Of a DNA stretch of 64,000 nucleotides, positions 8,576-62,171 are shown in pieces. Each line of letters starts with the position of its first letter. Position 1 is the first letter of the stretch. The position numbers and the translations under genes are program-made. Source of the DNA: Isosphaeraceae bacterium EP7 (lineage in GTDB: Bacteria; Planctomycetota; Planctomycetia; Isosphaerales; Isosphaeraceae); NCBI GenBank assembly GCA_038400315.1, contig CP151667.1, forward strand, positions 434,001-498,000. The letters run 5' to 3'. The notes beneath the pieces were generated by a model. It was not told the DNA's origin and did not search any database. It saw only the letters and a program-made list of their open reading frames with translations.

Positions 8576-8657
8576 TGCGAGAGGAGGGGGTCGAACCCTC
8601 ACGCCTTTCGGCACAGGAACCTAAATCCTGCGCGTCTGCCAGTTCCGCCACTCTCGC
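8576..8657 (-). tRNA. tRNA-Leu (anticodon UAG)
   Basis: Read on the minus strand, the gene starts GCGAGAGTGGCGGAA and ends with the matching acceptor arm CTCTCGC plus discriminator A. The anticodon stem CAGGA/TCCTG encloses loop TTTAGGT, giving anticodon TAG, which decodes CUA/CUG leucine codons. A long variable arm (TGCCGAAAGGCGT) marks a class II tRNA, as expected for Leu. The T arm is GAGGG-TTCGACC-CCCTC. CCA is not encoded. It is 82 nt long and stands alone. Confidence 0.95.
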
Positions 8658-58431: not shown

Positions 58432-58461
58432 TTGACAGGGGGGTTGGCCTTGTTCTAGATT
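58432..58461 (+). promoter_or_regulatory. Sigma70-type promoter upstream of tex
   Basis: TTGACA at 58432-58437 and TAGATT at 58456-58461 are 18 nt apart. Transcription would begin near 58468, giving a 5' leader of about 130 nt before the tex ATG. The -35 is perfect; the -10 matches at four of six positions. Confidence 0.6.
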
Positions 58462-58595
58462 GACCCTTCCTTTTCGGGGCGTCTCCCGGACAGTTCGCCC
58501 GCGCACACCACGCCGCTCACGCGGTTTCTCGGTCGCGGGGCGGACCAGATGGCCCACTCGGCAGTCGCCGTCCACCCTTTCAGGTGCCGTTCCTC

Positions 58596-61500
58596 ATGGA
58601 CAACCCGATTCAGGTCGACCTTGGCCGGATCGCGCAGGACCTCCAGATCCGGCGTGTTCAGGTCGAAAGCGTCGTCCAGTTGCTCGATGAGGGCAATACG
58701 GTCCCGTTCATCGCCCGCTACCGCAAGGAGCGGACCGGTAACCTGAACGAAGTGGCGATCTACGAGGTGCAGCTGCGCGTCGGCCGCCTCCGTGAGCTGG
58801 CCGAACGCAAGGAGACCGTCCTCAAGTCGATCGAGGCCCAGGGCAAGCTCACCGAAGAGCTGGCCGCCTCGATCCGCGCGGCCGAGAACTCCAAGCGGCT
58901 CGAAGACCTCTACCTCCCCTACAAGCCCAAGAAGAAGACCAAGGCGTCGGAGGCCCGCGACAAGGGCCTCGAGCCGCTGGCCTTGCGGGTCTGGAACCGC
59001 GACGAGACCCTGACCGACCTGCCCGCCGCCGCCGCCGAGTTCGTCGACGCCGAGAAGGGCCTCGACTCGCCGGAGAAGGTGCTCGAAGGCGTCGGCCACA
59101 TCCTCGCCGAGGCCATCAGCGAGATGGCCGTCGTCCGCGACGCCGCCCGCCGCGCCGTCTGGAAGACCGGCAAGATCTCCACCATCAAGGGCGAGATCCC
59201 CGAAGGCCAGGGCCTGGAGTTCCGCGACTACTTCGAGTACTCCGAGCCCATCGCCCAGATCCCGCCCCACCGCGTGCTGGCCATCAACCGAGGGGACAAA
59301 GAAGGCCCCCTGAAGGTCAAGCTCGAGGTCTCCAGGCCCGAGCTGGAAGCCGCCGTGCTCGGCTCGCTGCCGCTGGAGGGGCATCCCCAGTCCGACTTCT
59401 TCCGCGGCTCGGCCCTCGACGCCCTCGACCGCCTGCTCCTGCCCAGCCTCGAGCGTGAGGTGCGCCGCGACCTGACGGAGATGGCCGAGCGCCACGCCGT
59501 CGAGGTCTTCGCCCGCAACCTCCGCAGCCTCCTGCTCCAGCCCCCCATCCCCCGTCAGGTGGTGCTCGCCATCGACCCGGGCCTGCGGCACGGCTGCAAG
59601 GTGGCGGTGCTCGACAACTTCGGCACCCTGCTCGACAGCGGCGTCGTCTTCCCTCATGCCCCGCAGAATCGGCGGCACGAGGCCAAGATGTACCTGAAGG
59701 ATCTGGTCGGCAAGTACAAGGTCGGCGTCGTCGCCATCGGCAACGGCACCGCCTGCCGCGAGACCGAGGAGCTGGTCGCCGAGATTATCGCCGAGGGGAC
59801 CCGCTTCCAAGAGGCCGGCGAGACCCCCGAGACGTACAAGGCGAGCCACCCCCAGGTGCAGGTCCAGGCCCCGGCCCGGACTGAGCCGGCCCCCGCCTCC
59901 GAGATCGGCGAGGCCCAGGCCGCCGCCGAGGGAGAGCTGGCCGTCGAGCCGACCCCGCAGGCGGTTGACGTCGCCGAGGCGCCCCAGGAGACGCCCTCGA
60001 TGCCGGTGCCGACCACCGGCGAAGAGTCGCACAAGGACCCCACCCCGGCGCCCGACCCCGCGCCCGCGTCGGAGCCGGCCCCCGAGACCGACCCGTCGGC
60101 CACCAGCCCCTCCGACCTGCCGCCCATCTCCGGCGGCTCGGGCGAGGATGAGCCCGTGACCGAAGGCGAGGCCCCCGCAGTGACCGAGGGCGAGGCCCCT
60201 GCGGACGCCACGCCGCCGCCGTCGTCCACCCCCGAGGCGGAGTCGCCCGAGGCCGAGGCGCAGAAGGCCGACGTCCTGGCCCACAGCGACGCGACCAGCA
60301 ACCCCGCCGCCGAGTCCGAGTCGACCGAGGTCGCCGCCGAGAGCACCCTCTCCGAGGTCGTCGCCGAGGGTACCCCCTCCGAGGCCGCCCCCGATACCCC
60401 GGCCGCACCGCCCGCGCAGGCCCAGGCGCCTTCCAGGCCCCCCCGCGGGGAGCGCTCGGGCAACAAGCCCAAGGGCGATGGTGGCCCCAGGCCGCCCAAG
60501 GTCAAGCCCGGCCCGCCGCCGCCCCCCATCCCGCACGTCGCCGACCCGATCCTGGCGCAGCTCTCCTACGTCATCGTGAACGAGGCCGGCGCCAGCGTCT
60601 ACTCGGTCAGCCCGGTCGGCCGCGAGGAGTTCCCCGAGAGCGACGACAAGGTCCGCGGCACCGTCTCCATCGGCCGCAGGCTGCAAGACCCGCTCTCCGA
60701 GCTGGTCAAGATCGAGCCGCAGAACATCGGCGTCGGCCTGTACCAACACGACGTGAACCCGAAGCAGCTCAAGGAATCGCTCGAAGCGGTCATCATGAGC
60801 TGCGTGAACTTCGTAGGCGTTGACCTGAACTCGGCCAGCGTCCCGCTCCTGCGGCACGTCTCGGGCCTGAACCAGGTGACCGCCCGCCGGGTGGTCGAGT
60901 ACCGCCAGGCGAACGGCCCGTTCACCGACCGCGGCCAGCTTCTGCAGGTCGAGGGGATCGGCCCGGCCACCTTCACCCAGGCGGCCGGCTTCCTCAAGGT
61001 GCGCGAGGAGGTGGCCAATCCGCTCGACCGGACCTGGGTCCACCCCGAGAGCTACGAGGCCGCCGGCAAGCTGCTGGAGAGCCTCGGTTTCGGCCCCGAG
61101 ATCGTCACCCAGAAGGATCGCCTTCCCGAGCTGCTCGAGAAGCTCGCGACGATCGACATCCCGGCCGTCGCCCGCGACCTGAACATCGGCGAGCCGACGC
61201 TGGCCGACATCCTCGACGCCCTGGCCAGGCCCGATCGCGACCCTCGCGACGACCTGCCCAAGCCGATCTTCAAGAAGGGGATCCTCAAGCTCGAGGACCT
61301 CTCCGCCGGCATGGAGCTGAAGGGGACCGTCCTCAACGTGGTCGACTTCGGCGCCTTCGTCGACATCGGCCTGAAGGACTCGGGGCTCGTCCACATCAGC
61401 CAGCTCGCCAATCGCTACATCAAGAGCCCGCACGACGTGGTCTCGGTGGGCGACGTGGTCGACGTCTGGGTCATGTCGGTCGACCAGGAGCGCAAACGCG

Positions 61501-62171
61501 TCTCCCTGACGATGGTCCAGCCCGGCACCGAACGCCCCCGAGGGCAGCAAGGCGGACCCGGCGGCGGTGCCCCGGCCGGCGGCGGCAATGTCCGACGCGG
61601 CGAGCCTCGTCCCCCGGGCCCCGGCGGCGATCGTCGGCCGGCCCCCGGCCCTCGTCCCCCCAGGCGTGAAGGCCCGATCTTGCCCGGCGTCCCGGTCGGC
61701 CCCCCGGCCGGTTCGGCGCCCGAGCCCGGCCAGGGCCCCGGACCCGCTCCCGGAGGCAGCCGCTACGGCGGCGGCCAGGGTGGCGGCGGACGTCCCGGCG
61801 GCGGCCAGGGCGGCGGTGCACGCTACGGCGGTGGCGGCGGACGGCCCGGTGGCGGCGGCCAGGGTGGTCCCGGTCGCGGTGGACCTCGGTTCGGCGGCTC
61901 GCGTCCGCCCGAACGACCCCAGACCCCCCTGCTCCCGCCCAAGCCGGCGAAGCCGCTCCCCCCGCCCCCGCCCCTGTCTAAGGACGCGCTGGCGGGCAGC
62001 GTCCCGCTCCGCACGTTCGGCCAGCTCAAGCAGCTCTGGCAGGCCCGCGACCCCGAAGAGGGCGACGAAGGCGGACCCGGCGAGGGCCAGCCCTCATCGG
62101 GCGAGCCGCAACCGCAGCACGAGCAGCCCCCGCAGCAACAGCCGCAGGCCCCGGAAGGCGACGCCTCCTGA
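58596..62171 (+). CDS. tex: Tex-like S1 RNA-binding protein with a large insertion
   Basis: A 1191-residue Tex protein (E. coli Tex is 773). The N-terminal domain (IARYRKERTGNLNEV) is followed by the YqgF-like domain, AIDPGLRHGCKVAVLDNFG to AIGNGTACRETEELVAEI (to about 405). A Pro/Ala/Glu-rich, disordered insertion of about 225 residues (418-644) then interrupts that domain before VIVNEAGASVYSVSPVGR. HhH motifs (GLNQVTARRVVEYRQANGPF) and an S1 domain (GTVLNVVDFGAFVDIGLKDS) follow. The tail (about 976-1191) is Gly/Arg/Pro-rich with RGG-like repeats. Tex binds nucleic acid in transcription or translation stress. ATG 58596 is used; GTG 58584 is possible. Confidence 0.9.
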   Translation: MDNPIQVDLGRIAQDLQIRRVQVESVVQLLDEGNTVPFIARYRKERTGNLNEVAIYEVQLRVGRLRELAERKETVLKSIEAQGKLTEELAASIRAAENSKRLEDLYLPYKPKKKTKASEARDKGLEPLALRVWNRDETLTDLPAAAAEFVDAEKGLDSPEKVLEGVGHILAEAISEMAVVRDAARRAVWKTGKISTIKGEIPEGQGLEFRDYFEYSEPIAQIPPHRVLAINRGDKEGPLKVKLEVSRPELEAAVLGSLPLEGHPQSDFFRGSALDALDRLLLPSLEREVRRDLTEMAERHAVEVFARNLRSLLLQPPIPRQVVLAIDPGLRHGCKVAVLDNFGTLLDSGVVFPHAPQNRRHEAKMYLKDLVGKYKVGVVAIGNGTACRETEELVAEIIAEGTRFQEAGETPETYKASHPQVQVQAPARTEPAPASEIGEAQAAAEGELAVEPTPQAVDVAEAPQETPSMPVPTTGEESHKDPTPAPDPAPASEPAPETDPSATSPSDLPPISGGSGEDEPVTEGEAPAVTEGEAPADATPPPSSTPEAESPEAEAQKADVLAHSDATSNPAAESESTEVAAESTLSEVVAEGTPSEAAPDTPAAPPAQAQAPSRPPRGERSGNKPKGDGGPRPPKVKPGPPPPPIPHVADPILAQLSYVIVNEAGASVYSVSPVGREEFPESDDKVRGTVSIGRRLQDPLSELVKIEPQNIGVGLYQHDVNPKQLKESLEAVIMSCVNFVGVDLNSASVPLLRHVSGLNQVTARRVVEYRQANGPFTDRGQLLQVEGIGPATFTQAAGFLKVREEVANPLDRTWVHPESYEAAGKLLESLGFGPEIVTQKDRLPELLEKLATIDIPAVARDLNIGEPTLADILDALARPDRDPRDDLPKPIFKKGILKLEDLSAGMELKGTVLNVVDFGAFVDIGLKDSGLVHISQLANRYIKSPHDVVSVGDVVDVWVMSVDQERKRVSLTMVQPGTERPRGQQGGPGGGAPAGGGNVRRGEPRPPGPGGDRRPAPGPRPPRREGPILPGVPVGPPAGSAPEPGQGPGPAPGGSRYGGGQGGGGRPGGGQGGGARYGGGGGRPGGGGQGGPGRGGPRFGGSRPPERPQTPLLPPKPAKPLPPPPPLSKDALAGSVPLRTFGQLKQLWQARDPEEGDEGGPGEGQPSSGEPQPQHEQPPQQQPQAPEGDAS

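Follow-up and report, generated by a model that had tools for sequence, protein, structure and literature searches.

A lineage-specific disordered loop carrying a conserved short motif splits the YqgF domain of Tex in Isosphaeraceae

Here we describe a Tex protein with a lineage-specific, motif-bearing disordered loop, encoded in a 64,000-nucleotide stretch of the genome of Isosphaeraceae bacterium EP7 (hereafter the window). Tex is a widespread bacterial relative of Spt6, and what Tex does is, to our knowledge, still unclear. The window protein is an ordinary Tex core with a loop added in the middle of its YqgF domain, and within this loop a 12-residue peptide, M1, is conserved in sequence that otherwise changes fast. 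Searches of open-access literature on Tex and disorder in planctomycetes or Isosphaeraceae, and more broadly on Tex and on planctomycete disorder, a coverage outside which most subscription papers fall, brought up no description of the insert or the motif.

Results

An ordinary Tex core with a split YqgF domain

The tex gene (58596..62171, + strand) encodes 1191 amino acids and was identified by its Pfam domains and by a fold match to Pseudomonas Tex (3bzk/3bzc). The ATG start was chosen since it agrees with the start of relatives, a GTG 12 bases upstream being also possible. Tex_N (58626..58835, E 8.2e-28), the Tex central region (59025..59510, E 4.2e-30), YqgF, the helix-hairpin-helix domains HHH_3 (60804..60995) and HHH_9 (61017..61247) and the S1 RNA-binding domain (61305..61511, E 2.1e-18) follow one another on the + strand in the expected order, and all exceed the Pfam cut-offs. 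An AlphaFold2 model of the protein, the core of which is mostly above pLDDT 90, matches Pseudomonas Tex 3bzk, 3bzc and 2oce in Foldseek, thereby assigning it the Tex fold. A Pfam scan of the protein at E up to 1 returned no SH2 family and hence nothing corresponding to the tandem SH2 of Spt6. Antisense to tex, a 1031-residue open frame at 58455-61550 on the - strand looks less like a gene than like the mirror frame that GC-rich coding sequence produces, and the sole match in an Rfam scan of the window was a tRNA at 8576-8657, with no RNA gene in the tex region.

The YqgF domain is matched by the Pfam Tex_YqgF profile in two pieces, with the break at profile positions 81/83. The first half (59556..59798, +) covers profile positions 1-81 of 126 and the second (60555..60686, +) positions 83-126, including the invariant Glu of strand 5, and the split sits in a single open frame without stops. 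Since both halves are intact here, an unbroken YqgF domain is a usual rather than a defining feature of Tex. The acidic residues of YqgF strands 1 and 5, D327 and E663, are invariant in 65 aligned rows. The accessible text of one source describes a relocated acidic residue carried by strand 5 in the YqgF fold, and its role (PMC3985635).

The insert is long, disordered and segregated in charge

Ordinary Tex has about 29 residues between its GNGT and EAGAS landmarks, and the window Tex has 252 more. Measured by this landmark distance, the insert of about 252 residues occupies about 59793..60560 (+), a range that contains the 59847-60527 proposed by an earlier note on this DNA, which had claimed from the letters that a large disordered insertion splits the YqgF domain. 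Structure prediction bears that claim out, in that residues 424-629 (59865..60482, +) are nearly all below pLDDT 50. In the model, the order of strands and helices puts the insert after helix 2 and before strand 5 of the RNase H-like fold; according to the accessible text of PMC3985635, insertions at this position are known from other members of that fold.

The window insert has a net charge of -34 ahead of its last 70 residues and of +1 in the next 50, in agreement with the description of it, in the earlier note, as acidic first and then basic and proline-rich. The same layout recurs across the family: Isosphaeraceae inserts are net negative ahead of the last 70 residues in 43/43 cases and net positive in the subsequent 50 residues in 36/43, compared with no more than 3 in shuffles. 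A basic, proline-rich patch identified by its charge (60429..60512, +), close to where the insert ends, leads into a proline run and an H-x-[AS]-D re-entry segment (60513..60560, +), in which predicted order rises towards the domain (pLDDT block means about 70-88) and which is present in 43/43 Isosphaeraceae Tex. The sequences in general are rich in Ala, Pro, Glu and Ser, and differ strongly between Isosphaeraceae genomes in both length and order.

General disorder of the proteome as an explanation of the insert was not supported. A simple rule of our own called 307 genes on 464 kb, which amounts to about 6 percent of the window genome. Tex was alone among them in having a low-complexity stretch of at least 100 residues inside the protein (with 120 residues flanking it on each side), and no other low-complexity stretch was as long as the Tex insert or the Tex tail.

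The motif-bearing insert is an Isosphaeraceae trait

The order of the window genome consists of a single family, the Isosphaeraceae, with 45 genomes. Tex was found in 44 of these, G022 giving no Tex match, and both landmarks could be read in 43 proteins, in every one of which the insert adds 169-415 residues (median 259). In G018 a contig end cuts inside the insert, and this genome was used for the M1 count only; the alignment of these proteins was made without G015, G018 and G042. Since all 43 Tex proteins readable across the site, from many genera, carry extra residues, we reject an assembly artefact, which the earlier note had proposed to recognise by the absence of the insert from all relatives. 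Within the Isosphaeraceae, the presence of the insert is constant, and its fast-diverging sequence contains one conserved motif, M1.

Across a phylum sample, a match was obtained in 134/294 genomes, and besides the window genome only G088 has a two-piece match at this place; about a dozen genomes in which the match spanned the YqgF profile incompletely were left out of this reading. In the class sample, most Gemmataceae (family f94) genomes among the matches listed show a two-piece YqgF. We read 20 Tex proteins from Gemmataceae and related families over their whole length: 14, every one from f94, carry an insert at the same YqgF site, mostly of about 76-150 residues, and such same-site inserts were also seen in L052-L055; the remaining six (families f95 and f97, and two of f94) have an insert in another YqgF loop. 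These other-loop inserts (L212-L217, from G339, G342, G344, G393, G471 and G370) are disordered and lie at about reference residues 385-391. The M1 core was found in none of the 20. Genomes of Schlesneria and of family f2 (e.g. G335, G225) have no YqgF insert, and Tex of families f3 and f4 carries insertions near residues 225-240, with f3 having a further one near 612-655. With inserts at different sites in related families, Tex loops have been elaborated repeatedly in the Planctomycetia.

In a Tex tree that took 21 of the 44 Isosphaeraceae Tex proteins, all Isosphaeraceae group together (100/100), and the Gemmataceae group is their weakly supported sister (86/68). The insert may or may not have one shared origin in the two families, given this weak support and the position of the inserts of some relatives in another loop. 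The long motif-bearing insert is an Isosphaeraceae trait and is not planctomycete-wide. The earlier suggestion of a planctomycete-specific role for Tex holds to the extent that this is a lineage-specific elaboration, and fails in its breadth, as Gemmataceae inserts are shorter and lack M1 and other families have theirs elsewhere or none.

A conserved peptide within the insert

M1 (60114..60149, +) reads DLPPISGGSGED in the window Tex, and its family form is E-x-L-P-P-[IV]-[ST]-G-G-[AS]-P-[DE]. The core P-[IVL]-x-G-G-[AS] is present in 44/44 Isosphaeraceae genomes, in 47 copies altogether, three genomes having two. Across these copies the position following the core proline is always I, V or L, and P or A stands at -1 in all; there is an acid at -4 in 42/47, while 37 copies have S or T, 37 have P at +6 and 38 have D or E at +7. 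A strict regular expression for M1 matched 35/43 inserts and nothing in any of 300 shuffles, and a relaxed one matched 41/43, compared with at most one per shuffle, G001 and G002 being missed because their S/T/A/R position is L or V. In 42 same-genus pairs, which are not independent of one another, mean identity was 0.89 within M1 and 0.42 across the remaining insert, with M1 the higher in 41. The Tex insert thus holds a conserved short motif within fast-changing disordered sequence, a feature of short-linear-motif docking proteins. This motif is the clearest signal in our data and suggests protein docking, which was not among the proposals of the earlier note; that note had missed M1 and, in the tail, a segment predicted to fold.

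A constraint at the level of RNA, in the form of a CCNCC...GGNGG hairpin, was considered and rejected, with third-position covariation in 25/47 copies and a shuffle mean of 23.4. Since the third positions of the M1 codons vary, show no stem covariation and lie in a local RNA fold that is unremarkable (z 0.67), the constraint on M1 acts on the peptide and not on the RNA.

We also asked where else the peptide occurs. In the window genome the M1 pattern matches at three places, namely in Tex, in MoaD and in a frame without a recognised gene, versus two for the reversed control, and across the 45 genomes a stricter pattern has 29 sites, three of which fall outside Tex. The idea of a genome-wide docking motif common to other proteins was thus not supported, M1 being at background level elsewhere. 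The three non-Tex M1-like peptides are in L158 (G019), L176 (G028) and L177 (G030), a count consistent with background; one of these frames has apparent stretches that we take, by eye, to be FHA- and STAS-like.

The MoaD match arises from the tail of that protein, which in the window genome contains IPPVSGG; 37/47 M1 copies fit PP[VIL][STA]GG. The gene (L145, 1275-1559; contig C1, about 5992968-5993249), which we take to be moaD from its own sequence and a neighbouring moaE-like frame, encodes a tail of PPVSGG-ATAEDSATEVPR, extending 12 residues past Gly-Gly, and its end overlaps the start of moaE. Several other Isosphaeraceae MoaD copies have short extensions such as SDEA, SEPR and APVR. Such extensions past Gly-Gly suggest that a trimming step may be needed.

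The C-terminal tail contains a predicted folded segment

After the S1 domain the window Tex continues for 218 residues, close to the 215-residue Gly/Arg/Pro tail claimed earlier, although the tail is not uniform as that claim implied. A Gly/Arg/Pro-rich disordered linker (61563..61931, +; AlphaFold2, nearly all pLDDT under 50) is followed by a conserved and confidently modelled segment, M2 (61956..62048, +; PLSKDALAGSVPLRTFGQLKQLWQAR), which contains PLR[ST]FGQLKQLW, has pLDDT blocks of 86-91 and includes a helix at residues 1141-1151; the protein then ends in a disordered Gln/Pro/Glu-rich stretch (62058..62168, +; AlphaFold2). In a second model, of the insert-free Tex of G335, the M2 blocks have pLDDT 87-91, with Isosphaeraceae rows included in the alignment behind that model. 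Judging from pLDDT, M2 is a putative fold-back latch that may pack onto the Tex core.

Of 39 Isosphaeraceae proteins whose S1 end was located by an anchor, 35 have M2 or a close variant of it. The four misses comprise a truncated protein (G010), a variant (G011) and two proteins in which the motif lies in another frame (G028 and G031; L128 and L124), suggesting a frameshift or an assembly error in their Gly/Arg-rich tails; in G019 the S1 anchor was missed, yet M2 is present. Family f2, Schlesneria and some Gemmataceae have less strict versions of M2. Since the M2 regular expression failed in 17/20 Tex proteins of Gemmataceae and related families, conservation beyond the Isosphaeraceae is looser, and several ordinary Tex proteins terminate soon after S1. 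A search for a second M2 protein in the window genome gave none that was convincing, with one further match (E 0.012) in a 46-residue frame.

Discussion

We propose that the loop serves as a tether showing M1, as a docking peptide, to a partner protein, and that the tail ends in a fold-back latch, a reading that we believe and doubt in about equal measure. In this view, the nuclease-like YqgF domain of Isosphaeraceae Tex has gained a long, flexible extra loop between its helix 2 and its strand 5, most of it a freely changing acidic disordered spacer that would hold out the one short docking peptide, with the loop then re-entering the core via its basic patch and the proline/H-x-[AS]-D stretch. 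M1 would most likely bind a single pocket of the partner and so link it to Tex, itself expected on RNA or at RNA polymerase. M2 would fold back on the core as the latch, and the Arg/Gly-rich linker ahead of it might contact RNA. Against the docking reading we set the fact that the Tex model does not place M1 on Tex itself, and shared ancestry could explain why part of M1 has persisted, even if the remaining insert has not.

The earlier note had imagined the insert and tail recruiting RNA or driving condensates. For RNA, the net negative charge of the insert ahead of its last 70 residues in 43/43 proteins weakens the proposal, and judged by composition a mostly acidic insert would be a poor RNA recruiter; only the short basic patch towards its end, and the tail with its Arg and Gly, look suited to RNA. 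Because the loop is too acidic for a good RNA recruiter, the idea would fit the tail better than the insert. Condensate formation by the insert or the tail is possible. That it is their main role, acidic and basic blocks together with RNA bringing Tex into droplets, strikes us as unlikely, even with the segregation of charge seen in the inserts (a negative first part in all 43, then a positive stretch in 36, far above shuffles), the abundance of Gly and Arg in the tail and a precedent in Bacteroides Rho, in which, according to the accessible text, short motifs in a disordered region control condensation (PMC13269538). Charge layout leaves unexplained why a single 12-residue motif is kept amid varying composition, length and repeats, and the strongly acidic character of the insert overall disfavours RNA binding.

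M1 might instead act within Tex, as an internal regulatory peptide that masks, for example, the pseudo-active site of YqgF or the helix-hairpin-helix part of the protein until displaced. The loop adjoins strand 5, which bears the relocated acidic residue described in the accessible text of PMC3985635, here the invariant E663, and M1 is at background level elsewhere in the genomes. AlphaFold2, supplied with 65 rows, nonetheless leaves M1 undocked, with pLDDT block means under 40, yet places M2 with confidence, and we regard self-binding as quite unlikely.

A further possibility is that the insert arose largely by neutral growth of low-complexity sequence in an insertion-tolerant loop, with M1 a minor leftover. 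Insert length varies about 2.5-fold, internal tandem copies are visible by eye in some inserts, insertions recur at this and other Tex loops in related families, and the helix 2-strand 5 position is known for insertions in the RNase H fold (PMC3985635, in its accessible text). Such growth would not account for an M1 core kept in 44/44, a shared charge layout and H-x-[AS]-D in 43/43, nor for Tex being an outlier among the 307 sampled genes of its genome, so that we consider this explanation distinctly improbable.

Mimicry of a MoaD-type ubiquitin-like tail (P-P-[VI]-[ST]-G-G), with M1 bound or cut after Gly-Gly by tail-handling enzymes, would draw on the match to the genome's own MoaD (one of its two non-Tex matches), the extension of that protein past Gly-Gly and the JAMM-type (Prok-JAB) protein encoded in the genome, but is very improbable given a likeness spanning only six residues, the widespread occurrence of P-P-V-S-G-G tails among MoaD proteins, an internal location of M1 in a disordered loop with neither a ubiquitin-like fold nor a C-terminal Gly-Gly, and acids at -4 and +7 for which we know of no counterpart in MoaD tails. 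Its stronger form, in which a MoeB- or MoaE-like enzyme or the JAMM-type protein recognises M1 in Tex and may cut after Gly-Gly to give a two-chain transcription factor, is scarcely to be expected; if true, it would be a cleavage switch in an Spt6-type protein, for which we know of no counterpart.

Under the docking reading, M1 becomes a bait, the binder of which would name a Tex partner and provide a direct test of Tex function. The window Tex also predicts a C-terminal latch that would be common, in looser form, to the wider Planctomycetia.

The closest solved proteins are the structures of Pseudomonas aeruginosa Tex (PA5201; 3bzc, 3bzk, 2oce), which share the domain order and fold of the window protein (sequence E about 4e-167, Foldseek E 2.6e-54). 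Their YqgF domain is unbroken, however, with a few residues between the two stretches that are split apart here, and the alignment with P. aeruginosa Tex showed nothing in it resembling M1 or M2. Closer in descent, most Gemmataceae Tex read have a disordered insert at the same YqgF position, which is shorter and lacks the M1 core.

Rho of Bacteroides thetaiotaomicron is likewise a widespread transcription factor with a lineage-specific disordered region and short conserved motifs, as the accessible text of PMC13269538 presents it. It is a different protein, with motifs that are charged and RNA-linked there, whereas M1 is centred on Pro and Gly with flanking acids, and its region is condensate-forming, whereas the window Tex is known here from its charge layout and predicted disorder. 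The window genome itself encodes Rho twice: one copy (L218, C1:5210123-5211370, -) lies in a frame of 751 residues whose long N-terminal part looks disordered, and the other (L219, C1:1521992-1523089, +) in a frame of 451 residues that lacks such a part.

Many Spt6 chains match the window Tex model in Foldseek, a comparison that we use only for how such proteins work. In the accessible text of PMC13289920, Spt6 carries lineage-specific insertions, the metazoan insertion domain being located in S1 and predicted to form a zinc finger, whereas the insert described here is disordered and lies in YqgF. The eukaryotic Spt6 partner IWS1, as far as the accessible text of PMC13175633 describes it, acts through short motifs in disordered regions. 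Together, the IWS1 motifs and the Spt6 insertion show that this class of proteins has been elaborated in ways like those of the Tex loop.
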